Shown piece after piece: positions 8,952-61,729 of a stretch of 64,000 bases of DNA. Positions within the stretch are counted from its first letter, which is position 1, and each line of letters starts with the position of its first letter. The translations under genes were made by a program, and so were the position numbers. Source of the stretch: Ectobacillus funiculus (GTDB taxonomy: Bacteria; Bacillota; Bacilli; Bacillales; Bacillaceae_G). Location of the stretch: positions 186,001 through 250,000 of the forward strand of contig NZ_SCFM01000012.1 in assembly GCF_004138295.1 (NCBI RefSeq). The letters run 5' to 3'. A model generated the notes under the pieces. The model did no database searches. It was not told the origin of the DNA and saw only the letters and a list, made by a program, of their open reading frames with translations.

Positions 8952-9056
8952 TTGCTGCACCCCATTTCCTCACATATTCACATTCTTTCATTATAGTTGA
9001 TGGTTTGTTGTGAAATCAAAACATACTCTCCAGCTACTGTCCATATACATAGTGAT

Positions 9057-9190
9057 AAAGAAAACTCGCCGACTGGCGAGCCCCACTCTTGGGCGAAGAC
9101 AGAGGCGTAGTTGCACTTATACTGGATTCCTAAAATTCCCCACTACGTCGAATGAACTTCTAGCTGGGCATTTATACTTTCTTACAGTGT
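9057..9190 (+). repeat. 134-bp dispersed element, array A unit 1
   Basis: First unit of a head-to-tail array. It has hairpin 1 (CTCGCC/GGCGAG), a weaker hairpin 2, the CGTAGT/ACTACG pair and the right end CTTTCTTACAGTG. Here the distal pair reads ATTCCCC with TGGGCAT, so three CCC/GGG pairs replace the usual TTT/AAA pairs. Confidence 0.95.
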
Positions 9191-9324
9191 AAAGAAAACT
9201 CGCCGACTGGCGAGCCCCACTCTTGGGTGAAGACCGAGGCGTAGTTGCACTTATACTGGATTCCTAAAATTCCCCACTACGTCGAATGAACTTCTAGCTG
9301 GGCATTTATACTTTCTTACAGTGT
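9191..9324 (+). repeat. 134-bp dispersed element, array A unit 2
   Basis: Period exactly 134 bp from unit 1, differing from it by only a few substitutions (for example TTGGGTGAAGACC in place of TTGGGCGAAGACA). Confidence 0.95.
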
Positions 9325-9458
9325 AAAGAAAACTCGCCGACTGGCGAGCCCCACTCTTGGGCGAAGACAGAGGCGTAGTTGCACTTATACTGGATTCCTA
9401 AAATTCCCCACTACGTCAAATGAACTTCCAGCTGGGCATTTATACTTTCTTACAGTGT
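9325..9458 (+). repeat. 134-bp dispersed element, array A unit 3
   Basis: Third unit, again with 134-bp spacing; nearly identical to unit 1, with single changes in the central segment. Confidence 0.95.
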
Positions 9459-9511
9459 AAAGAAAACTCGCCGACTGGTGAGCCCTGCCCCCGGGCGAAG
9501 ATAGAAGCGTA
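9459..9511 (+). repeat. Dispersed element, array A unit 4 (3'-truncated)
   Basis: Only the left 53 bp remain (both hairpins, to GAAGCGTA). The sequence then passes directly into a startless open frame at 9535-9753, as if one deletion removed the right part of the unit and the 5' part of a gene. Confidence 0.85.
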
Positions 9512-9534
9512 CACAGAGCAGGGATAATTCCTGA

Positions 9535-9753
9535 AGAATACCGTATGTTCCTTACCACGAAACGCAATGTGTACCTGTTCTTATTGTCAGGGGAAGTATT
9601 AGCGTACATCGGACAATAGAGAAGCAAACACAGATTGATTTGCTTTCAGAAGAGAAGGCTCCTAGCCCGCAGAAAGCACTTGTCACAGCGGGTATTGTTA
9701 CGAAAGAGCAATGTGCAATGTGCACCAAACGAATACATTCTGATTTCTTGTAA
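9535..9753 (+). pseudogene. Startless open frame, possible 3' remnant of an unknown gene
   Basis: 73 codons without a stop, following a TGA and ending in TAA just upstream of ytrH. There is no ATG or GTG near the beginning and no ribosome binding site. The composition is protein-like (contains ALVTAGIVTKEQCAMCTKR, with a CxxC pair) and looks more natural than the overlapping frames. I do not recognise the family. It directly follows a truncated repeat unit, which supports a gene whose 5' end was deleted. It could also be a chance open frame. Confidence 0.35.
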
Positions 9754-10642: not shown

Positions 10643-10775
10643 CGCACTGTAAGAAATTATAAATTTTCAGCTAGAAGTCATGCTGCACAGGCGGAAATGT
10701 TAGGAGTACAGTGTAAGGATAAGGGCAACTACGCTTCTTTCTTCGCCTACCAGCTCGCCAATCAGCAAGTTTTCT
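10643..10775 (-). repeat. Dispersed element, inverted copy after ytrI terminator
   Basis: A full-length but diverged copy, in the opposite orientation to most others. Its right end (CGCACTGTAAGAAA as read on plus) touches the ytrI terminator T-run; its left hairpin (CTTGCTGATTGGCGAG on minus) faces nrnA. Confidence 0.85.
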
Positions 10776-10789
10776 ATAAAAATCCTCTA

Positions 10790-12182: not shown

Positions 12183-12212
12183 CTTTCTTTGTATCATACG
12201 CACAAATCTTCT

Positions 12213-12347
12213 AAAGAAAACTCGCCGATTGGCGAGCTCTGCTCCTGGGCGAAGACAGAGGCGTAGTTGCCCTTATACTGTATTCCTAAAATTTCCGACT
12301 ATGTCGAATTGGCTTTCAGCTGGAAATTTATACTTTCTTACAGTGTA
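12213..12347 (+). repeat. Dispersed element, single full copy before ytoI 3' end
   Basis: Complete unit. Hairpin 1 is perfect. The long-range pair is CGTAGT with ACTATG (a G-U wobble is kept), and the distal pair is AAATTTCC with GGAAATTT. The right end ACAGTGTA runs into an A-tract at the 3' side of ytoI. Confidence 0.95.
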
Positions 12348-13703: not shown

Positions 13704-13816
13704 GCAGCTTCACCATACTTTCCTTCCAGCGTTATAATAACAATTATACTACAAAATGAATACTGTTACACTGGAAGTAAGGAGAGCTGTATTCATTTTT
13801 TTATAACACATTAAAA

Positions 13817-13891
13817 GGAGGCGTAGCCCTACTGATACTGTATACCTAAAATTCCCTCCTACGTCGAATGGACTTCTGGCTGACAATGTAA
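13817..13891 (+). repeat. Dispersed element, 5'-truncated copy
   Basis: Starts at GAGGCGTAGCCCTA and lacks both hairpins. It keeps the CGTAG/CTACG pair, lost most of the distal arm, and ends ACAATGTAAAA against the ytkL terminator. Confidence 0.8.
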
Positions 13892-13923
13892 AAAAGAAGC
13901 GCCCCACCTCTAGGCACCTCTTT
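13890..13923 (-). terminator. Intrinsic terminator after ytkL
   Basis: Read on minus: AAAGAGGTGCC, loop, GGGCGCTTCTTT (with G-U pairs), then a T-run that touches the truncated repeat copy. Confidence 0.65.
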
Positions 13924-17659: not shown

Positions 17660-17674
17660 GTGAATTATATAGAT

Positions 17675-17807
17675 AAAGAAAACTCGTCGATTGGCGAGCC
17701 CTGCCCTTGGGCGAAGACAGAGGCGTAGTTGCACTTATACTTTATTCCTAAAATTTCTCACTACGTCGAATTCGCTTCTAGCTGGAAATTTATACTTTCT
17801 TACAATG
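17675..17807 (+). repeat. Dispersed element, full copy before argH terminator
   Basis: Complete unit with one mismatch in hairpin 1 (CTCGTC/GGCGAG). CGTAGT/ACTACG is intact and AAATTTCT pairs with GGAAATTT through one wobble. The right end is 1 bp from the argH terminator. Confidence 0.95.
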
Positions 17808-17808
17808 A

Positions 17809-17840
17809 AAACAAGCCAAGGCATATGCCTTGGCTTGTTT
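17809..17840 (-). terminator. Terminator after argH, a perfect 32-bp palindrome
   Basis: AAACAAGCCAAGGCAT followed by its exact reverse complement, ending in TTT on both strands, 10 bp from the argH stop. Confidence 0.85.
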
Positions 17841-17849
17841 CCTATCCTA

Positions 17850-19223
17850 TTATCCCAATACTGCATTTGCTTTCTCAAGCGCTTGACGCACTTGATCAAA
17901 GCCAGTACCGCCTTCACTATTACGACGCTTTACTGCTGCATACGGGTCCAATACATCATACAAATCCGCCTCAAACAACGGACATACCTCTTGATACGTC
18001 TCAAGTGGCAAATCTAATAAGTAAATGCCCTTTTCAATACACATGAGCACTAAACGTCCTACTACCTCATGCGCCTGACGGAACGGAAGACCTTTTGCTG
18101 CCAAGTAATCCGCAATTTCAGTTGCATTAGAGAAGTCTTGCTTTACTGCCTGTCCGAGCTTATCAGTATTTACTTTCATTGTGTCAATCATGCCTGCCAT
18201 TACAAGAAGAGAAGTTTTAATTGTTTTCACCGTATCAAACATACCTTCCTTGTCCTCTTGCAAGTCTTTATTATAGGCAAGCGGCAGACCCTTCATAACC
18301 GTAAGCAGGCTAAATAGGTTTCCGTATACGCGTCCTGTTTTACCACGGATTAACTCCGCCATATCCGGGTTTTTCTTTTGCGGCATAATGCTGCTTCCTG
18401 TAGAGTATTTGTCACTCATTTCAATGAATTGAAACTCCTGACTGCTCCACAAAATAAGCTCCTCGCAAAAACGCGACAAGTGCATCATCAAGATAGAAGA
18501 GCCGCTTAAAAACTCTAGAATAAAGTCACGGTCACTTACCGCATCCATGCTGTTTTCATAAATGCCGTCAAATCCAAGCAATGACGCGCTGTAGCTGCGG
18601 TCAATCGGGAATGTTGTACCAGCAAGAGCACCAGCTCCAAGCGGAGAAAGATTGATGCGTTTTAAGGAATCCTCATAACGCTCAACATCACGCTGCAGCA
18701 TCCAAAAGTATGCAAGAAGATGATGCGCAAACGACACTGGCTGTGCACGCTGCAAATGCGTGTAGCCTGGCATAATCGTTTCCACATGCTGCTCCGCCTT
18801 CTTCACGAGCACCTCTTGCAGCCCTTTCAGCTTAGCAATAATATCGCGAACTTCTTTACGTAAGTACAAATGCATATCCGTCGCAACTTGGTCATTACGG
18901 CTACGGGCAGTATGCAGTTTACCGCCCACTTCGCCGATTTGTTCAATTAGCATTTTTTCTAGGTTTAAATGAACATCCTCATTTTCAACAGAAAATGTCA
19001 ATTCATTGTTGTTTGCTTTCTCAAGAAGAACTTGCAGTCCTTCCTTAATCTTTGCCGCATCTTCTTCTGGAAGGATGCCGGATTTCGCAAGCATCGTAAC
19101 ATGTGCGATACTTCCTTCAAGATCCTCAAGCACAAGCTCTTGATCGAAGAAAATGGATGCTCCGAATTCTTCTACCCACGCTTCGGCTCCTTCTGTGAAG
19201 CGGCCGCCCCAAAGTTTTTTCAC
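17850..19223 (-). CDS. argH: Argininosuccinate lyase
   Basis: Splits argininosuccinate to arginine and fumarate, the last step of arginine synthesis. 457 residues; fumarase/aspartase superfamily signature [15 protein letters not shown] (catalytic Ser loop) at about residues 275-290, with [12 protein letters not shown] and [18 protein letters not shown] upstream. The ATG at 19223 overlaps the argG stop by 4 bp (ATGA), so it is translationally coupled to argG. Regulation presumably comes from the ARG boxes ahead of argG. Confidence 0.97.
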
Positions 19224-20927: not shown

Positions 20928-21032
20928 TACATCAGTGCCCACATTTCATTCTCATTAGATGCTGCTTACAGAGGGTAGAAAGCTGTAAGTATCTTCATTG
21001 TTCCCTATGCATTATTTCCTAATTTAATACAG

Positions 21033-21085
21033 AAAACTCACTGATTGGCGGGCTCGAAGACCGAGCTGCAGCTGCACTTATCCTT
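21033..21085 (+). repeat. Dispersed element, 3'-truncated fragment
   Basis: GAAAACTCACTGATTGGCGGGCTCGAAGACCGAGC... retains the left end, with hairpin 2 rebuilt as GCTCG..CGAGC, and stops at CTTATCC. The right end is missing; the EcsC-gene terminator lies 16 bp further on. Confidence 0.7.
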
Positions 21086-21100
21086 TGTTTTTTGAACATA

Positions 21101-21136
21101 AAAAATAAGCTTCTGCTGGGGCAGAAGCTTATTTTT
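21101..21136 (-). terminator. Terminator of the EcsC-family gene
   Basis: Stem AAAAATAAGCTTCTGC / GCAGAAGCTTATTTTT, loop TGGG. The gene's own stop codon (21129-21131) lies inside the stem. Confidence 0.85.
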
Positions 21137-21965
21137 GTTTCTCAAGCAAATACCGCATCTGATAGAAGCGATGGGTAAACTCTGTGACCGTGCGGGTTAA
21201 TCGATAGTTTACCGTCGATCCAACCGCAATTCCAAGAAGCGGGATCCCTTGAACGAGCTTGCGGCGAAGCATATAAATAATATACGTTTTAAGCGTCTGC
21301 TTCAAAAGCGCCTGACAGGACTCTGCACCTACAATTTTGTCTTCTCCTGAATAAAAAAATGGCATATCTCCTGCCTCATTAATTTCATCCAGTAATCCAT
21401 GCCAAGCATAGCGCTGTAATCTCGCTGGCAAGATGGCTGCATGAAATACCTTTAAAGCAAGCATCATCTCATAAGGTTTATTCACATCATATCCATACGT
21501 AGTTGCGATCAGCTGAACAGCCTTCAAATTTAAAGTGAGCATGAGTGGAAGATCAGCACTCAGCAATAAGAAACCTCCAGCTCCCGTCGCCCCACCCTGT
21601 AAGAAAGAATAGACACGATGACGGGCAATTTGATGCTCTGCAATATAAATAAGCTGATCAATAGATAATGTACGAAGCTCTTCAAGGTGCTCAATATGCT
21701 CATTAAATAAACGTGCCTCTGATAAAATACGCCCTCTCGCATCTAACTGCGATTGTGAGCTTTGAATAAACGCATGTAAATGAAACAGCCATTGATCCAC
21801 TTTTGCAAAAGCCTCCAGCCTCTTGCCAGCCGGTATTCCATTTACAGCCGCATTCACCCATTTGTCATACAGCATTTGAAAGTCGGTTGATTCCTGCTGC
21901 GATAATTGGTACTCCCAGCTTTGAATTTCATTCCAAACCTTTTGCTCCCGTTCTGTTAATGGCAT
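21129..21965 (-). CDS. EcsC family protein
   Basis: 278 residues. A helical N-terminus (WNEIQSWEYQLSQQESTDF) precedes the EcsC-like region with a hydrophobic glycine-rich segment (GGATGAGGFLLLSADLPLML, about 123-142) and a second one near the C-terminus (GIPLLGIAVGSTVNYRLT). The ecsC gene of B. subtilis accompanies the EcsAB transporter, but this paralogue stands alone beside ackA, as in the B. cereus group. The molecular role is not established; membrane association is likely. Confidence 0.8.
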   Translation of the reverse strand: MPLTEREQKVWNEIQSWEYQLSQQESTDFQMLYDKWVNAAVNGIPAGKRLEAFAKVDQWLFHLHAFIQSSQSQLDARGRILSEARLFNEHIEHLEELRTLSIDQLIYIAEHQIARHRVYSFLQGGATGAGGFLLLSADLPLMLTLNLKAVQLIATTYGYDVNKPYEMMLALKVFHAAILPARLQRYAWHGLLDEINEAGDMPFFYSGEDKIVGAESCQALLKQTLKTYIIYMLRRKLVQGIPLLGIAVGSTVNYRLTRTVTEFTHRFYQMRYLLEKQK

Positions 21966-22156
21966 AGTATCAGCTCCTTATCTGAGAAAGCGTTGCTTGG
22001 CCCAGGCTTGCCCTGCACCATCCTTTTTTTACCACATAGTTCCTAATATTATATCATACTTACCCTAAAGAACATGGCTGTAACTGCCATTCCTTTTTGT
22101 ACTGGAAATTATTCGAGAGAAGGCAGCCTGTGGATCTAAGCAATGATCCGAAACGT

Positions 22157-22230
22157 TATACTTTATTCCTAAAACTTCTCACTCCGTCGAATTTGCTTCC
22201 GGCTGGAAATTTATACTTTCCTACAGCGCA
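22157..22230 (+). repeat. Dispersed element, 5'-truncated copy before ackA terminator
   Basis: Begins TTATACTTTATTCCT and keeps only the right half (AACTTCTCACTCCGTCG... to CCTACAGCG). It ends 3 bp from the A-run of the ackA terminator. Confidence 0.85.
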
Positions 22231-24677: not shown

Positions 24678-24782
24678 TTTCTACACTCCTCTCAAAAATC
24701 ACAAAACAAACATAGTGTACCACACTGTTTCATATTATTCAGTATTGGCGTACTGCAAGAAAAGCAGACACGATATCTTTCC

Positions 24783-24902
24783 TGCTGATTAGCACTCCCT
24801 TGAATGAAGACAGCGGCGTAAGTTACCCTTATACTTTATTCCTAAAATTTCTTACTACGTCGAATGGCCTCCTGGATAGAAATTTAGACTTTCTTACAGT
24901 AC
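24783..24902 (+). repeat. Dispersed element, degenerate copy before tpx terminator
   Basis: Hairpin 1 is reduced to GCTGATTAGC; the central part (GGCGTAAGTTACCC ... TTACTACGTCG) and right end (TTTCTTACAGTAC) are recognisable. The right end abuts the tpx terminator. Confidence 0.75.
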
Positions 24903-24930
24903 AAAAAAGACCCCCCTTTGCGGGAGGTCT
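24903..24930 (-). terminator. Intrinsic terminator after tpx
   Basis: On minus GACCTCCCG / GGGGGGTC with loop CAAA and a TTTTTT tail. Confidence 0.8.
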
Positions 24931-27047: not shown

Positions 27048-27107
27048 AGCGTTTATATACAGCGGTTCCCGATAGGTATTTCGGTCACATCCGAAAATAC
27101 GTGAGAT

Positions 27108-27241
27108 AAAGAAAACTCGCCGATTGGCGAGCCCTGCCCTTGGGCGAAGACAGAGGCGTAGTTGCACTTATACTTTATTCCTAAAATTTCTCGCTACGTC
27201 GAATTGGCTTCCTGCTAGAAATTTATACTCTCTTAAAGTGT
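27108..27241 (+). repeat. 134-bp dispersed element, array B unit 1
   Basis: First of six head-to-tail units. Hairpin 1 occupies unit positions 9-24, hairpin 2 positions 29-38, CGTAG 50-54 pairs with CTACG 87-91, and AAATTTCT 77-84 pairs with AGAAATTT 110-117. This unit has GCGTAGTTGCACTTATAC; the following units have GCGTAGCCCTACTTGTAC. Confidence 0.97.
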
Positions 27242-27777
27242 AAAGAAAACTCGCCGATTGGCGAGCCCTGCCCTTGGGCGAAGACAGAGGCGTAGCCCTA
27301 CTTGTACTTTATTCCTAAAATTTCTCGCTACGTCGAATTGGCTTCCTGCTAGAAATTTATACTCTCTTAAAGTGTAAAGAAAACTCGCCGATTGGCGAGC
27401 CCTGCCCTTGGGCGAAGACAGAGGCGTAGCCCTACTTGTACTTTATTCCTAAAATTTCTCGCTACGTCGAATTGGCTTCCTGCTAGAAATTTATACTCTC
27501 TTAAAGTGTAAAGAAAACTCGCCGATTGGCGAGCCCTGCCCTTGGGCGAAGACAGAGGCGTAGCCCTACTTGTACTTTATTCCTAAAATTTCTCGCTACG
27601 TCGAATTGGCTTCCTGCTAGAAATTTATACTCTCTTAAAGTGTAAAGAAAACTCGCCGATTGGCGAGCCCTGCCCTTGGGCGAAGACAGAGGCGTAGCCC
27701 TACTTGTACTTTATTCCTAAAATTTCTCGCTACGTCGAATTGGCTTCCTGCTAGAAATTTATACTCTCTTAAAGTGT
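27242..27777 (+). repeat. Array B units 2-5 (four apparently identical 134-bp units)
   Basis: Unit boundaries are at 27242, 27376, 27510 and 27644. By eye the four units show no differences, implying recent amplification or ongoing homogenisation. All carry GCGTAGCCC with CTCGCTACG, which lengthens the long-range pair by one base (GCGTAGC/GCTACGT region) compared with unit 1. Confidence 0.97.
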
Positions 27778-27911
27778 AAAGAAAACTCGCCGATTGGCGA
27801 GCCCTGCCCTTGGGCGAAGACAGAGGCGTAGCCCTACTTATACTTTATTCCTAAAATTTCTCGCTACGTCGAATTGGCTTCCTGCTAGAAATTTATACTT
27901 TCTTAAAGTGA
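27778..27911 (+). repeat. 134-bp dispersed element, array B unit 6
   Basis: Last unit; differs from the inner units by CTTATAC for CTTGTAC and by TATACTTTCTT for TATACTCTCTT, like the single dispersed copies. Unit 1 also keeps CTTATAC, so both outer units look older than the inner ones. Confidence 0.97.
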
Positions 27912-27935
27912 AACAGAAGCTCTCTGTCTTCTCAC
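27912..27935 (-). terminator. Possible terminator after ytcI
   Basis: On minus ACAGAGAGCTTCTGTTTCACTTT: a 5-bp stem and short loop, T-poor tail, immediately next to the right end of array B. Confidence 0.4.
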
Positions 27936-34461: not shown

Positions 34462-34736
34462 CCATTTTCCTCCCCTTTTGCTCTTATCTCTTGTATGAGG
34501 ACTTCCTTGATAACTATTGTCAAAATAACTAAAACGGCCCTGCGATGCAATGTTTATCCTATTTCGAAATCAATAATATTTCTTGTTTATATGTATCAAT
34601 ACTTGGAAAATGTCAATGTACTAATGATACCATGTTATATACTGTTTTTGACCTCATTTTTTATATTTTTTTCAGGATTCGTCTTTCGCTGTACAAGCCT
34701 GTTGATCCGTTTCTTACATACAGTGTAAAGAAAACT
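34462..34736. other. AT-rich upstream region of ezrA
   Basis: No gene. Its right end (TTTCTTACATACAGTGT at about 34720-34736) looks like the right end of a lost repeat unit directly joined to the copy at 34737. An ezrA promoter must lie here but no clear -35/-10 pair was chosen. Confidence 0.4.
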
Positions 34737-34841
34737 CGCTGATTGGCGAGGACAGAGGCGTAGTTGCACTTATACTTTATTCCTAAAATTTCTCGCTACG
34801 TCGAATTGGCATCCAGCTAGAAATTTATACATTAAGTGTAA
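34737..34841 (+). repeat. Dispersed element, copy lacking hairpin 2
   Basis: After hairpin 1 (CTCGCTGATTGGCGAG) the sequence goes straight to GACAGAGGCGTAG: the whole second hairpin is cleanly absent. The rest is intact (CTCGCTACG, AAATTTCT/AGAAATTT), and the right end (ATTAAGTGTAAAA) abuts a terminator. Confidence 0.9.
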
Positions 34842-35805: not shown

Positions 35806-36285
35806 ATGTTTCATACAGAGACATACAGCGGATCACGAGAAAAAAATTACGACACATTGATTCGACAATTAGAAGCATTAATTGCAGGAGAGACGAACGC
35901 AGTAGCTAACATGGCCAACGCTTCCGCTCTCTTGCATCAATTTCTTCAAGATATTAACTGGGTGGGCTTTTATGTAACAGAGGGTAATGAGCTTGTGCTC
36001 GGACCTTTCCAAGGCCTTCCTGCTTGCGTACGTATTCCATTTGGCAGAGGGGTCTGTGGAACAGCTGCGGCAACGAAAACAACGCAGCTCGTGGCGGACG
36101 TACATCAATTTCCTGGTCATATCGCGTGCGACGCAGCTTCGAATTCCGAAATCGTCGTGCCGTTAATCAAAAACGGTGAAGTAATTGGTGTACTTGATAT
36201 CGACAGCCCTAGTAAAAGTCGTTTTGACGAGTTGGATCAAACATATTTAGAGAAATTCGCACAGTCTTTAGTAAAGGGTCTGTAA
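35806..36285 (+). CDS. ytsP: GAF-domain free methionine-(R)-sulfoxide reductase YtsP
   Basis: Reduces free Met-R-sulfoxide; 159-residue single GAF domain. Three cysteines of the fRMsr family are visible in PACVRIPFGRGVCGTAA and HIACDAASNSEIVVP, including the catalytic one, and NWVGFYV and GVLDIDSPSKSRFDELD complete the signature. The ATG at 35806 follows AAGGGAG at good spacing; a frame extending 7 codons upstream uses a GTG placed before the ribosome binding site. Divergent from refZ; rpsD follows on the same strand with its own promoter. Confidence 0.92.
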   Translation: MFHTETYSGSREKNYDTLIRQLEALIAGETNAVANMANASALLHQFLQDINWVGFYVTEGNELVLGPFQGLPACVRIPFGRGVCGTAAATKTTQLVADVHQFPGHIACDAASNSEIVVPLIKNGEVIGVLDIDSPSKSRFDELDQTYLEKFAQSLVKGL

Positions 36286-36312
36286 CAACAGTTATAGCAC
36301 CTATAAACACAC

Positions 36313-36385
36313 GCTTATTTCTCCTAAAATCTCCTGCTACGACGAATTCGCTTCTAGCTGGAAATTTATACTTTCTTACAGTGCA
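36313..36385 (+). repeat. Dispersed element, 5'-truncated copy before the rpsD promoter
   Basis: Right half only (CTCCTAAAATCTCCTGCTACGACG to CTTTCTTACAGTGC). It ends 12 bp upstream of the rpsD -35 box, one of the few copies not beside a terminator. Confidence 0.85.
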
Positions 36386-40614: not shown

Positions 40615-40637
40615 TGTCTTCTCTCCTCCATTCAAAT

Positions 40638-40737
40638 AAAGAAAACTTGGCGATCGCCTAGTTGTGCTTATACTTTCTCCTTAAAAACTCCTACTACATA
40701 GCCTCTTAGCCGGAAATTTATAATTCTTTAAAGTATA
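40638..40737 (+). repeat. Dispersed element, shortened copy inside the tyrS leader
   Basis: Left end AAAGAAAACTTGGCGATCGCC (hairpin 1 remodelled to GGCGATCGCC) is joined after a deletion to AGTTGTGCTTATACTTT; the right end (TTTATAATTCTTTAAAGTAT) touches the T-run of the T-box terminator. As mRNA it would be transcribed antisense, between the attenuator and the tyrS ribosome binding site. Confidence 0.85.
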
Positions 40738-40738
40738 A

Positions 40739-40998
40739 AAAAAATCGCCCCTTCTTAAAAAGAAGGGACGATTGAATATATAATCGCGGTACCACCCTAG
40801 TTGTGACATATTGTCACCGCTCCATTTTGATAACGGCTCGTGCCGTCCTTCCCCTCTTGCGTAATAATTCAATCGAAGAAGAATGCTCCAGGGTGTAATT
40901 CGTAATCATTTATGTGCTGATTCACACCGACCATCAGCTCTCTGTGACAGGGAAATGATTGCTACTAAATCCTTTCAACGCGCAAATATTCATGATTT
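40739..40998 (-). promoter_or_regulatory. T-box riboswitch (tyrosine) of tyrS
   Basis: Read on minus: a structured leader, a candidate specifier TAC (Tyr) at 40897-40895 in GAATTACACC, the highly conserved T-box core AGGGTGGTACCGCG (40798-40785), and a terminator CGTCCCTTCTT / AGAAGGGGCG with an 8-T tail (about 40771-40739). The T-box core can pair with the 5' side of the terminator to form the antiterminator. Uncharged tRNA-Tyr should promote readthrough into tyrS, the standard T-box mechanism. The specifier assignment is inferred from position and from the gene. Confidence 0.9.
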
Positions 40999-41034: not shown

Positions 41035-41053
41035 ATACAGCTTTCTACAGTAT

Positions 41054-41188
41054 AAAGAAAACTTGCCGATTGGCGAGCCCTGTTCTTGGGCAAAGACAGA
41101 GGCTTAGTTGCCCTTATATTGTATTCCTAAAATTTCTTGCTGCGTCAAATGGCCTCCCGGCTAGAAATTTATACTTTCTTAAAGCGCA
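41054..41188 (+). repeat. Dispersed element, full copy before acsA terminator
   Basis: Complete unit (CTTGCCGATTGGCGAG; GGCTTAGTTG; CTTGCTGCGTC) in which the long-range CGTAG/CTACG pair has decayed, while AAATTTCT/AGAAATTT is perfect. The right end is 2-3 bp from the acsA terminator. Confidence 0.93.
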
Positions 41189-45154: not shown

Positions 45155-45156
45155 CT

Positions 45157-45286
45157 AAAGAAAAGCGAGCCCTGCCCTTGGGCGAAGACAGAGGCGTGCG
45201 TAGTTGCACCTTATACTGGATTCCTAAAATTTCTCACTACGTCGAATCGTCTTCTAGCTAGAAATTTATACTTTCTTAAAGTGTAA
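45157..45286 (+). repeat. Dispersed element, copy lacking the hairpin 1 left arm
   Basis: AAAGAAAAG is followed directly by CGAGCCCTGCCCTTGGGCG: the left arm and loop of hairpin 1 are deleted while hairpin 2 is perfect. It starts 2 bp after the acuC stop and ends at the shared terminator. Confidence 0.9.
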
Positions 45287-48898: not shown

Positions 48899-50014
48899 AT
48901 GAAAGATCCACGTATTGAAACGTTAGCGAACAACCTCATTCATTATTCTGTAAAACTAAAAAAAGGTGAAAAAGTTTTAATTGAAAATTTCGGGCTTGAG
49001 CGTGAGCTAGTCAGTGCACTTATTAAGGAAGCATACGCAGCAGGAGGCTATCCATTCGTATCCTTAAAAGATAACCAGGTGAACCGTGCATTAATGATGG
49101 ATGCCTCAGAAGAGCATTTTTCGCAAATTGCAGACTTTGAAGCAGAAGTCATGAAAAGCATGGATGCTTACATCGGACTTCGCTCCGGCAGCAATGTTAA
49201 TGAACTGGCAGATGTTCCAAGTGACAAGATGAAGATTTACAACCAAACAGTCGGTCAAAAGGTACACCGTGAGATTCGTGTCCCGAAAACAAAATGGGTC
49301 GTCCTTCGCTATCCGACAGCTTCTATGGCACAGCTTGCAAAAATGAGCACTGAAGCATTTGAGGACTTCTATTTCGATGTCTGCAACCTTGACTACGGCA
49401 AAATGAATGAAGCGATGGACGGACTCGTTGAGCTGATGAATCGTACAAACAAAGTACGAATTACGGGCCCTGGTACTGACTTAACATTCTCCATTCAGGA
49501 CATCCCGGCCATTAAATGTGCGGGCGAAATGAACATTCCAGATGGTGAGGTGTTTACAGCTCCAGTAAAAGACTCCGTAAACGGAACCATTACATATAAC
49601 ACACCGTCTCCTTATAACGGTTACACATTTGAAAACGTAAAGCTTACATTTAAAGATGGTAAAATCGTGGAAGCAATGGCAAATGATACTTCAAGAATTA
49701 ATGACATTTTTGATACAGATGAAGGTGCTCGTTTTATCGGGGAATTCGCTATTGGTGTTAATCCTTACATTCTCCATCCAATGGGCGATATTTTATTTGA
49801 CGAAAAAATTGACGGCAGCTTCCACTTCACACCAGGCCAAGCATATGACGAAGCCTATAACGGAAACAACTCTAATATCCACTGGGATTTAGTTTGCATT
49901 CAGCGTCCAGAATACGGAGGCGGCGAAATATACTTCGATGATGTACTCATTCGAAAAGACGGCCGTTTTGTAATTGCTGAGCTAGAAGCATTAAACCCTG
50001 AGAATTTAAAGTAG
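48899..50014 (+). CDS. ampS: M29 family aminopeptidase AmpS
   Basis: 371-residue cytoplasmic metallo-aminopeptidase. M29 features include ITGPGTDLTFSIQDIPAIKC, GEMNIPDGEVFTAPVKDSV (metal-binding Glu), EFAIGVNPYI and the C-terminal FHFTPGQAYDEAYNGNNSN and HWDLVCIQR with metal ligands. About 40 residues shorter than the roughly 410 of some family members, mostly in the middle. The ATG at 48899 follows AGGAGGGG. The last codon and stop form the left edge of a repeat copy. Confidence 0.88.
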   Translation: MKDPRIETLANNLIHYSVKLKKGEKVLIENFGLERELVSALIKEAYAAGGYPFVSLKDNQVNRALMMDASEEHFSQIADFEAEVMKSMDAYIGLRSGSNVNELADVPSDKMKIYNQTVGQKVHREIRVPKTKWVVLRYPTASMAQLAKMSTEAFEDFYFDVCNLDYGKMNEAMDGLVELMNRTNKVRITGPGTDLTFSIQDIPAIKCAGEMNIPDGEVFTAPVKDSVNGTITYNTPSPYNGYTFENVKLTFKDGKIVEAMANDTSRINDIFDTDEGARFIGEFAIGVNPYILHPMGDILFDEKIDGSFHFTPGQAYDEAYNGNNSNIHWDLVCIQRPEYGGGEIYFDDVLIRKDGRFVIAELEALNPENLK

Positions 50015-50139
50015 ACTCGCTGATTGGCGAGTCGCCAGATGAAGACAGAGGCGTAGTTGCACTTACACTGCACTCCTAAATTTTCCAACTACGTCGAATT
50101 CACTTCTAGCTGGAAATTTATCCTTTCCCAGGGTGTAAA
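50008..50139 (+). repeat. Dispersed element, full copy starting at the ampS stop codon
   Basis: Left end AAAGTAGACTCGCTGATTGGCGAG includes the ampS TAG. Hairpin 2 is altered. The long-range pair is extended to 8 bp (CGTAGTTG/CAACTACG) and the distal pair is TTTTCC/GGAAA. The right end abuts the ampS/murC terminator. Confidence 0.93.
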
Positions 50140-53020: not shown

Positions 53021-55756
53021 TTATCCTTGTCCATTCATATCCTGCATAGCAGCCAGCTCTCCCTCTGTGATGAGAACATCACGCGGCTTTGTTCCGCGAG
53101 CCTCCGAAATAATGCCTTGTGCTTCCATTTCTTCAATAAGACGTGCAGCACGATTATAACCAATTCGGAAGCGACGTTGCACAGATGAGGCAGATGCGCC
53201 GCCCTGCTCCAATACAAACTGACAAGCATCATAAAATAGCTCATCCTCTGCTGCGTGCTGCTCTGCCTTCGCCAGCAAATCATCCTGCTGAAACATATAG
53301 CATGGCTTCATTTGCTGTTTTACATGCTGCACGGTACGCTCAATTTCCTCATCTGATACATATACCCCCTGCAGACGAACCGTTTTTGATGTGCCATTTT
53401 CTAAAAATAACATATCCCCGCGTCCAAGTAATTTTTCTGCCCCTGCAGTATCGATAATGGTCCGAGAGTCAACCTGAGACGATACAGTAAAAGCAATACG
53501 TGTCGGTATATTTGACTTAATGAGCCCAGTAATTACATCCACAGACGGGCGCTGCGTCGCGACAAGCAAATGAATTCCACATGCACGCGCCTTTTGCGCA
53601 ATACGGCAAATAGCTTCTTCTACATCAGCAGCTGCTACCATCATTAAATCTGCCAACTCATCAATTACGATGACAATGTAAGGCAGCTGCTGTCCTGGCG
53701 CTTGCTTTTGCTCAACAAGATCATTATACCTTGTTAAATCACGGGCACCTGCATGTGCAAATGACTCGTATCGACGGTCCATTTCTTCTACAGCCCACTT
53801 CAACGCAGCCGTAGCTGCTTTTGCATCTGTAATCACTGGAGATACAAGATGAGGCACTTCATTATACGGTGCCAACTCGACCATTTTCGGGTCAATCAAC
53901 ATAAGCTTCACCTCATGAGGCATAGCTTTATATAAGATACTTGTCAAAATTGCGTTGATACACACACTCTTTCCGGATCCGGTCGAGCCTGCAATCAACC
54001 CATGCGGCATTTTGCGGATATCAGTTACAATCGGTGCACCGGAAATATCCAAACCAAGCGCAACCGTTAGAGGCGAATCACTTTTTGCAAACTCAGGACT
54101 ACGCAAAATTTCTCGCAAAAACACTGGCTTGCTTTCCTTATTCGGCACCTCAATGCCAACTGCATTCTTGCCCGGAATCGGCGCTTCAATACGAATATCG
54201 CGTGCAGCTAAATTTAGCTTAATATCATCGGATAAATTAGTAATTTTATTAACCTTGACTCCTGGGTCAGGCTGTACTTCAAAACGCGTAACAGAAGGTC
54301 CTTGTGTCAGATTCACAACCTTGGCACCTACATTAAAATTAAAGAATGTTGTATTGAGCAATTCCATTTGCTCCTGCAGCCACTCGTCATCATTCACTTC
54401 TAAACGCGATGGAACATGCAATAAATGTATAGGCGGTAGCGTATATAGTGGCATTTCTTGCTTCTTTTGCTCCAAGCGAAGCCTGTCCTGCTTAAGCATC
54501 ATTACGTTATACGGCACAAACCGCTTTCTCTCACGCCCCTCGACCTTTACAGACTGAGGGTTTTCAAGAGGCCCCTTTTCTTCCGCTGCCTCTACCACCT
54601 TAGAAGTCTCTTGTCCCTGCTGCTCTTTAGCTTCCTCTTCCCCCAATAGCTCACTTGTTTCTACTGCCTCTGTCTCTTCAGAAGATTCTTGCTCCTGCTG
54701 CTCTTTAGCTTCCTCTTCCTCCAGCAGCTCACTTGTTTCTACTGCCTCTGCCTCTTCAGAAGATTCTTGCTCCTGCTGCTCTTTAGCTTCCTCTTCCTCC
54801 AATAGCTCACTTGTTTCTACTGCCTCTGCCTCTTCAGAAGATTCTTGCTCCTGCTGCTCCTTAGCTTCCTCTTCCTTCAGTAGCTCACTCGCTACTTCTG
54901 TCTCTTCAGAAGATTCTTGCTCCTGCTGCTCTTTAGCTTCCTCTTCCTTCAGTAGCTCACTCGCTTTTACTGCTTTTACTGCTTCTGCCTCTTCAGAGGG
55001 TCCTTGCTCCTGCTGTTCTCCTTCTGATGCAAAATCCTCCAGCTCAGGTAGCCCCACTGTTTTTAGTTCTGTTAGTGCTTCGTTCTGCACAACTTGCACT
55101 ACCTCTGGCTTTTCATAAGCCTTTTCCACATACTCCTTACTTAAGAGTGTTTGCTCTTCAGTATCTCCGTATGCCTTTTCGATGTGTATCGCTTCCGTCT
55201 TCTCAAAAACTGATACGTATCCATTTTTCTCAAGCCATGCATCCACTACTGATTTTCTTTCATTTGACAGTACGATATCCTCATCCTCAACAGGCGGACG
55301 CTTTTCTTCCACCTGCCCTGGACGTGTATAACCAAAAACAGGCGATGGGACTTCAGTCGGACGAAAAGGAACACGGCTAGACTCTGGCAATTGTGGACGA
55401 GTAAAGACCTGCTCCTCAGGCTGCTGCAATGTAGGTTCCGTTACATGCTGCGGCACAGAAGGCCGTGCTTGTTCAGGCTGCTCCCACTGCAATGAACGAG
55501 GGCGGGGTCTGCTTCTATCCTGTTCTATAGAAGGCTGCCTTTTTACCTGATCAGTTCGAACAGGCTCACGTCTCTCAAGCGGTTCATTAATATCTAGCGG
55601 AAACCGAAATTTCCCCTTTGGGTATTGATAAGTCACTCTAGCCTCTATTTCTTTTTGTAACGGTTCATATTTGTCTATAACAGGCGAATGATCTGTTTGA
55701 GGAGCTTCAGGTACACTCTCCTCCTTCTTCAACAGTTTTTTCATCCAATCTAACAT
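53021..55756 (-). CDS. sftA: FtsK/SpoIIIE-family DNA translocase SftA, with acidic tandem repeats
   Basis: Soluble DNA motor that clears chromosome arms from the vegetative septum. 911 residues without membrane helices, which separates it from SpoIIIE. A variable Pro/Gln/Glu-rich linker (about 20-385) carries five near-identical copies of a 26-residue unit (24 in one), such as SELLEEEEAKEQQEQESSEE, at about 255-382. The motor follows: Walker A AGSTGSGKSVC (about 593), Walker B YIVIVIDELADLMM (about 699), and the winged-helix gamma domain (about 835-911). The ATG at 55756 is chosen; 59 extra upstream codons read into a repeat copy. Confidence 0.93.
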   Translation of the reverse strand: MLDWMKKLLKKEESVPEAPQTDHSPVIDKYEPLQKEIEARVTYQYPKGKFRFPLDINEPLERREPVRTDQVKRQPSIEQDRSRPRPRSLQWEQPEQARPSVPQHVTEPTLQQPEEQVFTRPQLPESSRVPFRPTEVPSPVFGYTRPGQVEEKRPPVEDEDIVLSNERKSVVDAWLEKNGYVSVFEKTEAIHIEKAYGDTEEQTLLSKEYVEKAYEKPEVVQVVQNEALTELKTVGLPELEDFASEGEQQEQGPSEEAEAVKAVKASELLKEEEAKEQQEQESSEETEVASELLKEEEAKEQQEQESSEEAEAVETSELLEEEEAKEQQEQESSEEAEAVETSELLEEEEAKEQQEQESSEETEAVETSELLGEEEAKEQQGQETSKVVEAAEEKGPLENPQSVKVEGRERKRFVPYNVMMLKQDRLRLEQKKQEMPLYTLPPIHLLHVPSRLEVNDDEWLQEQMELLNTTFFNFNVGAKVVNLTQGPSVTRFEVQPDPGVKVNKITNLSDDIKLNLAARDIRIEAPIPGKNAVGIEVPNKESKPVFLREILRSPEFAKSDSPLTVALGLDISGAPIVTDIRKMPHGLIAGSTGSGKSVCINAILTSILYKAMPHEVKLMLIDPKMVELAPYNEVPHLVSPVITDAKAATAALKWAVEEMDRRYESFAHAGARDLTRYNDLVEQKQAPGQQLPYIVIVIDELADLMMVAAADVEEAICRIAQKARACGIHLLVATQRPSVDVITGLIKSNIPTRIAFTVSSQVDSRTIIDTAGAEKLLGRGDMLFLENGTSKTVRLQGVYVSDEEIERTVQHVKQQMKPCYMFQQDDLLAKAEQHAAEDELFYDACQFVLEQGGASASSVQRRFRIGYNRAARLIEEMEAQGIISEARGTKPRDVLITEGELAAMQDMNGQG
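54610..55000 (-). repeat. 78-bp coding tandem repeat within sftA
   Basis: CTCTTTAGCTTCCTCTTC recurs at 54623, 54701, 54779, 54857 (as CTCCTTAG) and 54929: period 78 bp, once 72 bp (two codons shorter). All units stay in frame, so copy number can change without disrupting the gene. Confidence 0.93.
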
Positions 55757-55870
55757 GCAGTACCACTCTTTCTGCAAAATAATAACATCTTTTATTGTAA
55801 CAGCATTATAGCGAATGTGGGAAAAAAAATTATAGGAGACAAAATCCCCTAGCAACACTACATAATATGT

Positions 55871-56006
55871 AAAGAAAACTCGCCGATTGGCGAGCCAGCC
55901 CTTGGGCGAAGACAGAGGCGTAGTTGCACTCATATTACATTCCTAAAATTTCCAACTACACCGAATTCATTTCTACCTGGAAATTTGCGCCTGCTTAGAA
56001 GCGCAA
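55871..56006 (+). repeat. Dispersed element, full copy upstream of sftA
   Basis: Hairpin 1 is perfect; GCCAGCCCTTGGGCG hairpin 2; GTAGTTG pairs with CAACTAC and AAATTTCC with GGAAATTT. The right end is unusual (TTGCGCCTGCTTAGAAGCGC) and abuts a stem-loop. Confidence 0.92.
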
Positions 56007-56043
56007 AAAAGCAAAAACCACCTAGATAGCGGCTTTTGCTTTT
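56005..56043 (-). terminator. Stem-loop terminator between ytpQ and sftA
   Basis: AAAAAGCAAAA / TTTTGCTTTT with a GC-containing inner part; T-rich tail on minus. It lies between two repeat copies. Confidence 0.55.
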
Positions 56044-56087
56044 GAATCCATTTATTAGATGCTACTGCCTTATCGTCGCTGTAGGAT

Positions 56088-56217
56088 AAAGAAAACTTAC
56101 TAATTGGCAAGCCGTTAGAAAAAAGTAGCAGCGTAGTTACACTTACACCTTGTTCCTAAAATTTCTGGCTACGTCGAATTCACTTCTACCTGGAAATTTA
56201 TACTTTCTTAAGTGCAA
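56088..56217 (+). repeat. Dispersed element, full copy after ytpQ
   Basis: Hairpin 1 is AT-shifted (CTTACTAATTGGCAAG); hairpin 2 is lost. GCGTAG/CTACGTC is kept, as is AAATTTCT/GGAAATTT. It lies 43 bp from the ytpQ stop without an obvious terminator between. Confidence 0.9.
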
Positions 56218-59098: not shown

Positions 59099-59226
59099 GT
59101 GAAGAAAACTCGCCGATTAGCGAGCTATTAGAAGCGTAGCGTAGTTGCACTACACTTTATTTCTAAAATTCCTTGCTGCGTTGAACTCGCTTCTAGCTGA
59201 AAATTTATACCTTCTTAAAGTGCAAG
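59099..59226 (+). repeat. Dispersed element, diverged full copy upstream of ytoP
   Basis: AGAAAACTCGCCGATTAGCGAG; hairpin 2 is replaced by a short TTAGAAGCGTAGCGTAG stretch; the right half ends CTTCTTAAAGTGC. No terminator is adjacent. Confidence 0.88.
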
Positions 59227-59356
59227 AAAGCAAAACGAGACGATTCCACTTTTCCCATAGGATACTTTTTCCTATATACTCTGATTCTTATTGTAGCGAA
59301 ATTCTACAAATGTCGCTAGTTTCTTCTTTTTTTGAGGATTTTCGATTATACTTGAT

Positions 59357-59486
59357 AAAGAATACTCGCCGACTGATGAGCCGTTAGGCGAAGACAGAGG
59401 CGTAGTTGCACTTACACTGTATTCCGACAATTTCCGACTACGTCGAATTGACTTCTAGCCGGAAATGTATACTTTCCTACAGTGAA
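59357..59486 (+). repeat. Dispersed element, full copy upstream of ytzB
   Basis: CTCGCCGACTGATGAG hairpin 1 with one mismatch, shortened hairpin 2 (CCGTTAGG), GCGTAGTTG/CGACTACGTC and ATTTCC/GGAAAT. It ends 35 bp before the ytzB start, so it lies in its promoter region. Confidence 0.92.
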
Positions 59487-59520
59487 ATAAAAACCATTCT
59501 GTTCAATAGAGGTGGAAGCG

Positions 59521-59832
59521 ATGAATTGGAAAAGCTTGCTCATCGGTATGGGCTTAGGTGTAACTGCCGGATATTTCGCAGCAGTAAAATTGCAGCAAGG
59601 CAGTCATCTTTCGTCCGAAAAAGCATTGCACATGGCAAAAAAATCATTTGAAGATAAAGGTGAAATTACAGGCTCTTGGATTCACATGGTACCAGAGGTG
59701 TTAGAACGCTACAATTTAACATACGACGTGTATCGCGGTGGCATTACAGCTCTCATCGACGGTATGCAGGAACGATTTGAATTTTTAGTAGATGCCAAGA
59801 CAGGAACAATTTTAGAAGTAATTGAAGACTAA
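59521..59832 (+). CDS. ytzB: PepSY-domain membrane-anchored protein YtzB
   Basis: 103 residues. N-terminal transmembrane anchor (SLLIGMGLGVTAGYFAAVKL), then a single PepSY domain (about 40-103: VYRGGITALIDGMQERFEF, VDAKTGTILEV). PepSY domains are thought to inhibit or chaperone peptidases at the cell surface. The ATG at 59521 follows AGAGGTGG; an ATG three codons earlier has a poorer spacing. Flanked on both sides by repeat copies, the right one starting on its stop codon. Confidence 0.87.
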   Translation: MNWKSLLIGMGLGVTAGYFAAVKLQQGSHLSSEKALHMAKKSFEDKGEITGSWIHMVPEVLERYNLTYDVYRGGITALIDGMQERFEFLVDAKTGTILEVIED

Positions 59833-59965
59833 AAAACTTGCCAACTGGCGAGCCCTGCCCTTGGGCGAAGACGAAGACGTAGTCGCACTTATACCGTATT
59901 CTTAAAATTTCCGACTACGTCGAATTCGTCTCTAGGTGGAAATGTATACTTTCTTACAGTGAAGT
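59831..59965 (+). repeat. Dispersed element, full copy on the ytzB stop codon
   Basis: Left end AAAAAACTTGCCAACTGGCGAG begins within the ytzB TAA. Hairpin 2 is perfect. The long-range pair is a perfect 10 bp, GACGTAGTCG / CGACTACGTC: two positions usually unpaired have changed to complementary bases. Confidence 0.95.
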
Positions 59966-61563: not shown

Positions 61564-61593
61564 CAGTATTCTTCCCTTCTTAATCCAACAAAT

Positions 61594-61729
61594 AAAGAAA
61601 ACTCGCCGACTAGCGAGCCCTGCCTTTGGGCGAAGACAGAGGCGTAGCCCTACTTATACTGTATTCCTAAAATTTTCGACTACGTCGAATTCACTTCTAG
61701 CTGGAAATTTATACTTTCTTACAGTGTAA
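61594..61729 (+). repeat. Dispersed element, full copy upstream of trmB
   Basis: CTCGCCGACTAGCGAG, GCCTTTGGGC, GCGTAGCCC with CGACTACGTC, TTTTC/GGAAA, right end ATACTTTCTTACAGTGTAAAA. Beyond it a small hairpin-like ACCAAGT/ACTCGGT follows. Confidence 0.95.

Follow-up and report, generated by a model that had tools for sequence, protein, structure and literature searches.

What is the 134-bp unit that stands six times head to tail on the + strand at 27108-27911, and what has scattered it over the rest of the window, as the 64,000-nucleotide stretch of Ectobacillus funiculus DNA analysed here is termed? The array is found alike by TRF (27107-27918, 6.1 copies, 98% matches), by nhmmer and by R1, a covariance model of the repeat. 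The reading argued below, held at slightly better than even chances, is that the unit is mobile, MITE-like and non-autonomous, that selection has acted on its single-strand fold, and that it inserts, with an orientation given by the replication fork, on the 3' side of a hairpin and T-tract. It is accordingly discussed among the MITE-like repeats; the mechanism proposed for it is unproven.

Copies and relatives of the repeat

About 30 copies had been counted in the window by the first-pass annotation of this DNA, and both searches bear this out: nhmmer returns 28, 27 of them on the + strand (E ≤ 0.01), and R1 returns 29, 28 of them on + (E ≤ 0.001). The following positions are all R1 matches, on the + strand unless stated. 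A second array, found by nhmmer too, joins three full copies and a decayed one at 9056-9590. Single copies lie at 10643-10778 (the sole - copy among the 29), 12212-12347 and 17674-17809 (both missing in congeners), 41053-41188, 45156-45285, 50007-50137 and 61593-61728; two copies (55870-56004 and 56087-56217) lie within 55870-56217, and three (59100-59224, 59356-59486 and 59830-59963) within 59100-59963. Decayed copies are found at 13778-13898, 24760-24903 and 36248-36385, with a decayed 5' half at 21028-21148 and a decayed 3' half at 22100-22230, beside the terminator-like hairpin of acetate kinase. Inner deletions mark the copy at 34726-34840, and the copy at 40637-40737 has a clean empty site in congeners. 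Synteny was also used for the copies starting at 12212, 17674, 22100, 24760, 40637 and 41053. At 54586-54973 the window additionally holds a 78-bp tandem repeat that keeps the reading frame, with Glu-rich units of 26 aa, within a 970-aa FtsK/SpoIIIE-family gene on the - strand.

Beyond the window, R1 finds 309 copies in 1,258,763 sampled bases of the source genome, a 5.45-Mb draft in 146 contigs. Scaled to the whole genome, and taking the sample as representative, this makes approximately 1,300 copies, a figure that may be high, as the 1.26-Mb sample was chosen partly where matches were already known; in addition, two sampled stretches of contig C46 share 2 kb, and one copy was possibly counted twice. 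The source genome probably carries more than 1,000 copies. Across the order, the repeat occurs in 77 of 299 genomes and 44 of 116 genera, with an approximately 25-fold spread in copy density between carriers. None was found in the three congeners searched, while a second genus of the same family has it in 12 of 13 genomes, and the matches listed include Neobacillus, Cytobacillus, Metabacillus, Evansella, Scopulibacillus and Pseudalkalibacillus, as well as Gottfriedia acidiceleris. Counts of orientation, mismatches, flanks, identity and right-hand tetramers given below draw on alignment A5, which has the best 150 of 205 hits and is missing 55 weak ones.

In a search of the phylum, R1 matches 14 of 398 genomes, and the weak matches outside the order represent a compact relative, which has in common with the 134-bp repeat its start (TAAAGAAAACTTGGC), its core (AGTTGC-CTTAT) and its end (TATACTTTC). 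With its own model, R2, this relative is found in 33 of the 398 genomes, the source genome included; it too occurs in tandem (L383), and it adjoins hairpins on its right in 7 of 24 cases, versus 0 of 24 on its left. Compact copies at L395 and L372, in G392 and another genome, have approximately 50 extra bases after GTTGCAC, and at L394 and L395, the same site in two genomes, such an extra stretch of approximately 50 bases is present in one only. Among 72,556 plasmid records, the 134-bp repeat matches one (CP053689, named Arthrobacter citreus), and in one second-genus genome a copy lies at an identical plasmid position; a single compact-relative query matched no plasmid record. Neither repeat was found in phages, and two exact patterns had no match in viral contigs.

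Covarying stems and alternative folds

The first-pass annotation had read in each unit two hairpins and two pairs of interleaved arms, a/a' and b/b', laid out as a pseudoknot, whose covariation was taken as the mark of selection on a folded strand. Inspection of the sequence finds the arms where it had placed them. On 36 copies from many genomes, this fold beats 500 of 500 shuffles, which ignore kinship, and the fit is due mainly to b/b' and hairpin 1. The strongest covariation joins b to b' (27318-27325 and 27351-27358 in the second unit, spanning 27318-27358 on +): in 48 distinct rows, none of them from the source genome, its pairs exchange as GC19/UA17, GC26/UA8/CG3 and CG23/UA9. Hairpin 1 (CTCGCC-GATT-GGCGAG, 27250-27265 on + in the second unit), identified by sequence and covariation, has 18 two-sided cells versus 6.3 in shuffled alignments; at least as many changed pairs arise in 98 of 500 shuffles.

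When every combination of two columns was scored on 42 of the 49 rows of alignment A6 (sequences from other genomes, with seven rows left out), b/b' pairs came among the top ten together with 21-39, 12-47 and 14-45, which define a long 5' stem: P1 (8-15 with 44-52), P1b (20-22 with 38-40) and P2 (25-27 with 32-34). The top list also holds non-pairing columns such as 12-36, as kinship would give. In the second unit this stem, recognised by compensatory changes, occupies 27248-27297 on +, with 27248-27255 opposite 27289-27297 and P1b and P2 inside; the subfamily in the array at 27108-27911 does not keep the two outermost pairs of P1. Taking the 5' stem and b together, 13 of 22 pairs have two-sided changes, with 62 such cells against 21.4 after shuffling; P1 and P1b alone have 17 against 6.2, but 25 of 500 shuffles attain at least as many pair types, and in 34 of 47 rows the two middle bases of P1b do not pair.

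Hence the covariation claimed earlier stands for b/b', strongly, and for hairpin 1, and falls for a/a'. The a arms are complementary in 88.5% of cells, in an alignment fitted to a model that already contained the a/a' helix, yet they have 2 two-sided changes versus 0.8 shuffled, a number reached by 100 of 500 shuffles. Their most variable pair, 56-87, has no association in the source genome among its four commonest types (TA80 TG47 CA30 CG26; Fisher p=0.25). The pseudoknot is thus unsupported and, for lack of a/a' covariation, rejected: the 5' arm of a/a' is better explained by P1, the compact relative has, by eye, no a' arm, and a pseudoknot is not needed, because b/b' and P1 are not interleaved. 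The broader claim of selection on a folded single strand survives, as b/b', hairpin 1 and P1 all covary by shuffles that ignore kinship. Hairpin 1 and P1 compete, each with its own covariation, and so two alternative folds seem to have been selected.

Computed for one copy, the folding energy does not stand out (z of -1.15 as RNA, -0.19 as reverse RNA and 0.54 as DNA). Among 198 distinct sequences of 254 copies in the source genome, G.T and A.C mismatches in the stems are similar in number (72:56 in hairpin 1, 11:20 in hairpin 2 and 38:44 in b); thus the copies decay, and it was the source copies that were selected, which for single copies overturns the earlier view that the sequence is not simply decaying. 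In the alignment of other genomes, the stems have G.T versus A.C mismatches of 26:18, a ratio compatible with folding of either strand. A constant G.T at 50-93 was considered as proof of the folded strand and dropped, as within P1 the partner of position 50 is 14.

No Rfam family accounts for the repeat. In Rfam 15, the window reaches a gathering score with a T-box alone; one 134-bp unit at E ≤ 10 gives sR53 matches that are weak and fall well short of that score, and eight loci of the compact relative give a T-box only.

Target site and stacking

To the right of the repeat there is typically a run of A: the following tetramer is NAAA in 61% of 123 copies versus 3.5% at random, and TAAA in 55 of the 123. 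A terminator-like hairpin stands at the right end of 40 of 165 full copies, compared with 2 of 174 at the left end, 1.6% of random places and, where TAAAA sites were drawn at random, 33 of 966; by the score used, approximately three quarters of full copies are without a strong right-end hairpin. Hence, read in reverse, the repeat stands 3' of a hairpin followed by TTTTTA. Examples in the window are the hairpin at 17810-17840 (from sequence), which adjoins the right end of the copy at 17674-17809 and follows the gene at 17850-19223 (-), and the A-run and hairpin at 40738-40775 (end approximate; from Rfam and synteny), which adjoin the T-box match. That such hairpins belong to the repeat itself was considered and rejected, as they differ between loci and are lacking on the left side.

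The left end has the same character. In reverse, the 134-bp repeat follows hairpin-TTTTTTTA and its own far end is hairpin-TTTTCTTTA; TTTA thus both precedes it (TAAA in the 55 of 123 above) and ends it (TAAAG at the left end of 128 of 173 isolated copies). In the second unit of the array, hairpin 1 read in reverse is likewise followed by TTTTCTTTA, presenting, as GGCGAG-TTTTCTTTA, a terminator-like target of the same kind.

At eight syntenic sites, each compared by eye with two or three congeners, the congeners do not have the repeat. One of the eight gives a clean empty site: the copy at 40637-40737, beside a T-box, splits CTTTAAAATAAAAAAATCGCCCC, which is intact in two congeners with a similar sequence in the third, and there is no target duplication. 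The T-box leader is on the - strand at 40761-40987, and the repeat lies between the T-box hairpin and the gene start, where it might influence that gene. In congener G003 (L226-L228), which does not have the 134-bp repeat, a third, shorter repeat lies at two of the eight sites, beside the same terminators of the acetate kinase and redoxin genes.

A second family, of approximately 156 bp, has the right-end motif TTATACTTTCTTA in common with the 134-bp repeat. Similarity searches place it at L158, L103, L130, L090, L106, L141, L149 and L157, and the sample holds ten copies of at least 147 bases, the query included. Five of these ten adjoin the left end of a 134-bp copy that has its body, a sixth adjoins a hairpin of the same sequence without a body, and one copy is cut by the end of its stretch. 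At L149, near 3187, the hairpin-1 sequence has A- and T-tracts on both sides and no body, and is perhaps a remnant, perhaps an original terminator. The second family may also have interleaved arms (by eye).

The head-to-tail arrays of the 134-bp repeat obey the same stacking rule as the second-family copies. As the left end is the repeat's own target, on which further copies stack, tandem arrays are explained, although identical units inside an array could alternatively stem from unequal recombination. On the strand opposite to the array's, insertion would occur directly 3' of a hairpin plus a T-tract that ends in TTTA, a combination that is often an intrinsic terminator, and would leave the target unduplicated; with hairpin 1 and TTTTCTTTA as the far end, each insertion would recreate the target, and a copy of the same or another family could then stack there.

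Pneumococcal SPRITE, BOX and RUP are likewise small and interspersed, and SPRITE resembles a terminator, according to the parts of PMC3049150 that describe them; by that description they differ from the 134-bp repeat, for which the terminator belongs to the host and serves as target. In the open-licence papers searched, neither a sequence string of the 134-bp repeat nor a recognisable description of it was found.

Replication, movement and the mobiliser

GC skew of the + strand is negative throughout the window, and hence its + copies are lagging-sense. The same orientation prevails elsewhere: 169 of 203 clusters are lagging-sense (169:34, p=1e-22; 61 sources, 57 with matches kept), counted in regions with an absolute GC skew of at least 0.03. 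With neighbouring genes taken as mechanical ORFs of at least 100 aa, the ratio is 93:13 where both are leading, 13:4 where both are lagging, 29:10 where they converge and 27:4 where they diverge. The bias therefore holds in every arrangement, and the orientation of the 134-bp repeat follows the replication fork, not the neighbouring genes; transcription as its cause is rejected, as copies flanked by two ORFs of the opposite direction still have the bias (13:4). On complete chromosomes of three other species, 28 of 35, 29 of 34 and 49 of 52 copies are lagging-sense by the nearest sampled GC skew. The second family has the same fork orientation in 7 of 10 copies, as does the compact relative in 8 of 10 in G460 (by eye, with only ten candidates scored).

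A shared fork orientation in several genera, and a terminator context in two families, would also be expected of a functional chromosomal sequence, whether a non-coding RNA or a replication-oriented DNA signal, spread by selection. Such a function is very improbable, being difficult to reconcile with absence from the three congeners and from 222 of 299 genomes of the order, with so wide a spread in density between carriers, and with copies that decay without strand-specific constraint. Rather, five observations lead to the MITE-like mobile element: firstly, dispersal, with absence at the syntenic sites of congeners; secondly, the target rule; thirdly, stacking; fourthly, fork-linked orientation; and fifthly, the covarying fold. 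In this mechanism, the strand bearing the hairpin and TTTA is leading-sense, meaning the lagging-strand template, and the fork hence probably presents the target hairpin as exposed single-stranded DNA. The substrate would itself be single-stranded DNA, and the enzyme would be supplied in trans.

The movement was recent in one host, G039. Dispersed copies in the source genome have a best match of 98.5% and a median nearest match of 92%. In G039, where 13 of 14 fetched copies were compared, two from separate loci show no difference across 130 bases and the other eleven are 94-99% identical to their nearest; the family thus moved recently there. No autonomous copy was found among three split copies in the 1.26 Mb: the first contains an EcsC-family gene, the second extends over 4.2 kb that include coding sequence, and the third is a 4-base overlap.

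A lagging-strand template, a one-sided short target and the lack of duplication are features that the 134-bp repeat shares with the IS200/IS605 family, as portrayed in part of PMC6006769, and the source genome has 13 TnpB matches. The repeat could hence be a miniature derivative of that family, moved by a Y1 transposase since lost in many hosts, but this is decidedly unlikely: Y1 is missing in five carriers (G009, G010, G012, G014 and G015) and TnpB in seven (G009, G012, G019, G022, G026, G035 and G039), though drafts may hide multicopy genes. Y1 matches in the source genome are weak (best E 2.9e-6, with stops), and among 40 Y1 or TnpB loci a fragment of the repeat occurs only at L119, approximately 1 kb from a Y1 gene and with unrelated genes next to it.

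The best guess is single-strand insertion at the lagging-strand template, with an RNA intermediate as its chief rival. In a SINE-like retroposon, the A-run of a + transcript would be primed by the T-tract of a terminator, on a nascent strand or at a nick, with reverse transcriptase acting in trans; such copying would leave one exact end and many 5'-truncated copies. The truncated copies fit reverse transcription better, as 42 are 5'-truncated versus 22 3'-truncated (p=0.017); the A-run and one-sided target suit it as well, the compensatory changes are those of a structured RNA, and of two RVT_1 genes in the source genome, one lies next to a group II intron RNA. The stem-loop target of group IIC introns is often a terminator. 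These introns also use a DNA stem-loop and lagging strands at replication forks, as stated in part of PMC10190682; the repeat differs from them in being 134 bases long, with no intron RNA domain in Rfam and no similarity beyond chance to 12 reverse transcriptase loci. That lack of similarity weighs against a retroposon too, as do the lack of a conserved promoter-like sequence upstream of the repeat, the absence of RVT_1 from carriers G009, G012 and G013 (again in drafts that may hide multicopy genes), and the two RVT_1 genes of G039, the host of young copies, which are of the defence types UG30 and DRT8; this genome has no TnpB and one weak Y1 match. The retroposon is hence rather unlikely, if far from negligible. 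Defence-type reverse transcriptases were seen at L363 and L364 (UG30 and DRT8, in G039) and at L365 in G035 (UG17 with a SLATT partner).

Y1, TnpB and RVT_1 are thus each rejected as the general mobiliser, as their presence does not follow the repeat: G009 and G012 are carriers without any of them, and congener G003 has all three and not the repeat. In the source genome, with its two RVT_1 genes and 13 TnpB matches, either may still play that part. That no enzyme is linked to the repeat, and that all three are missing from G009 and G012, counts against the MITE-like mobile reading itself; the few copies in these two genomes may be fossils, and a gene's absence from a draft weighs little.

The closest known kind may reasonably be taken to be the bcr1-type repeats of the Bacillus cereus group, likened by behaviour. 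The abstract of a 2004 report is said to place TTTAT at each end of bcr1. As characterised in part of PMC3446304, bcr1-bcr3 (group A) are small, interspersed, mostly chromosomal, MITE-like repeats, and 84 of 165 and 62 of 155 bcr copies lie within transcripts. The TTTA at both ends of the 134-bp repeat resembles the TTTAT motif given for bcr repeats in part of PMC6542083, where the first bcr element is described as restricted to the B. cereus group, whereas the 134-bp repeat is also in Neobacillus, Cytobacillus, Gottfriedia and others among the matches listed. A hairpin target, fork bias and stacking are, going by the descriptions in those parts of PMC3446304 and PMC6542083, the 134-bp repeat's only.

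New relative to the first-pass annotation are the attribution of the strand bias to replication, the right-end terminator hairpins and the second repeat family. A wider interpretation is offered tentatively, as a possibility short of probable: that gene-less, tiny elements throughout the Bacillota move single-stranded at replication forks, have a fold that switches between hairpin 1 and P1 and a terminator target that they recreate themselves, need no Y1, TnpB or group II reverse transcriptase, and rely on a new mobiliser or on host replication and recombination enzymes. If the MITE-like mobile reading is right, approximately 3% of the source genome, by the copy-number estimate, would be one element placed and directed by terminators and forks, and the biology of the family would gain an insertion rule, a reason for its tandem arrays, and sets of carrier and non-carrier genomes in which to hunt for the mobiliser.
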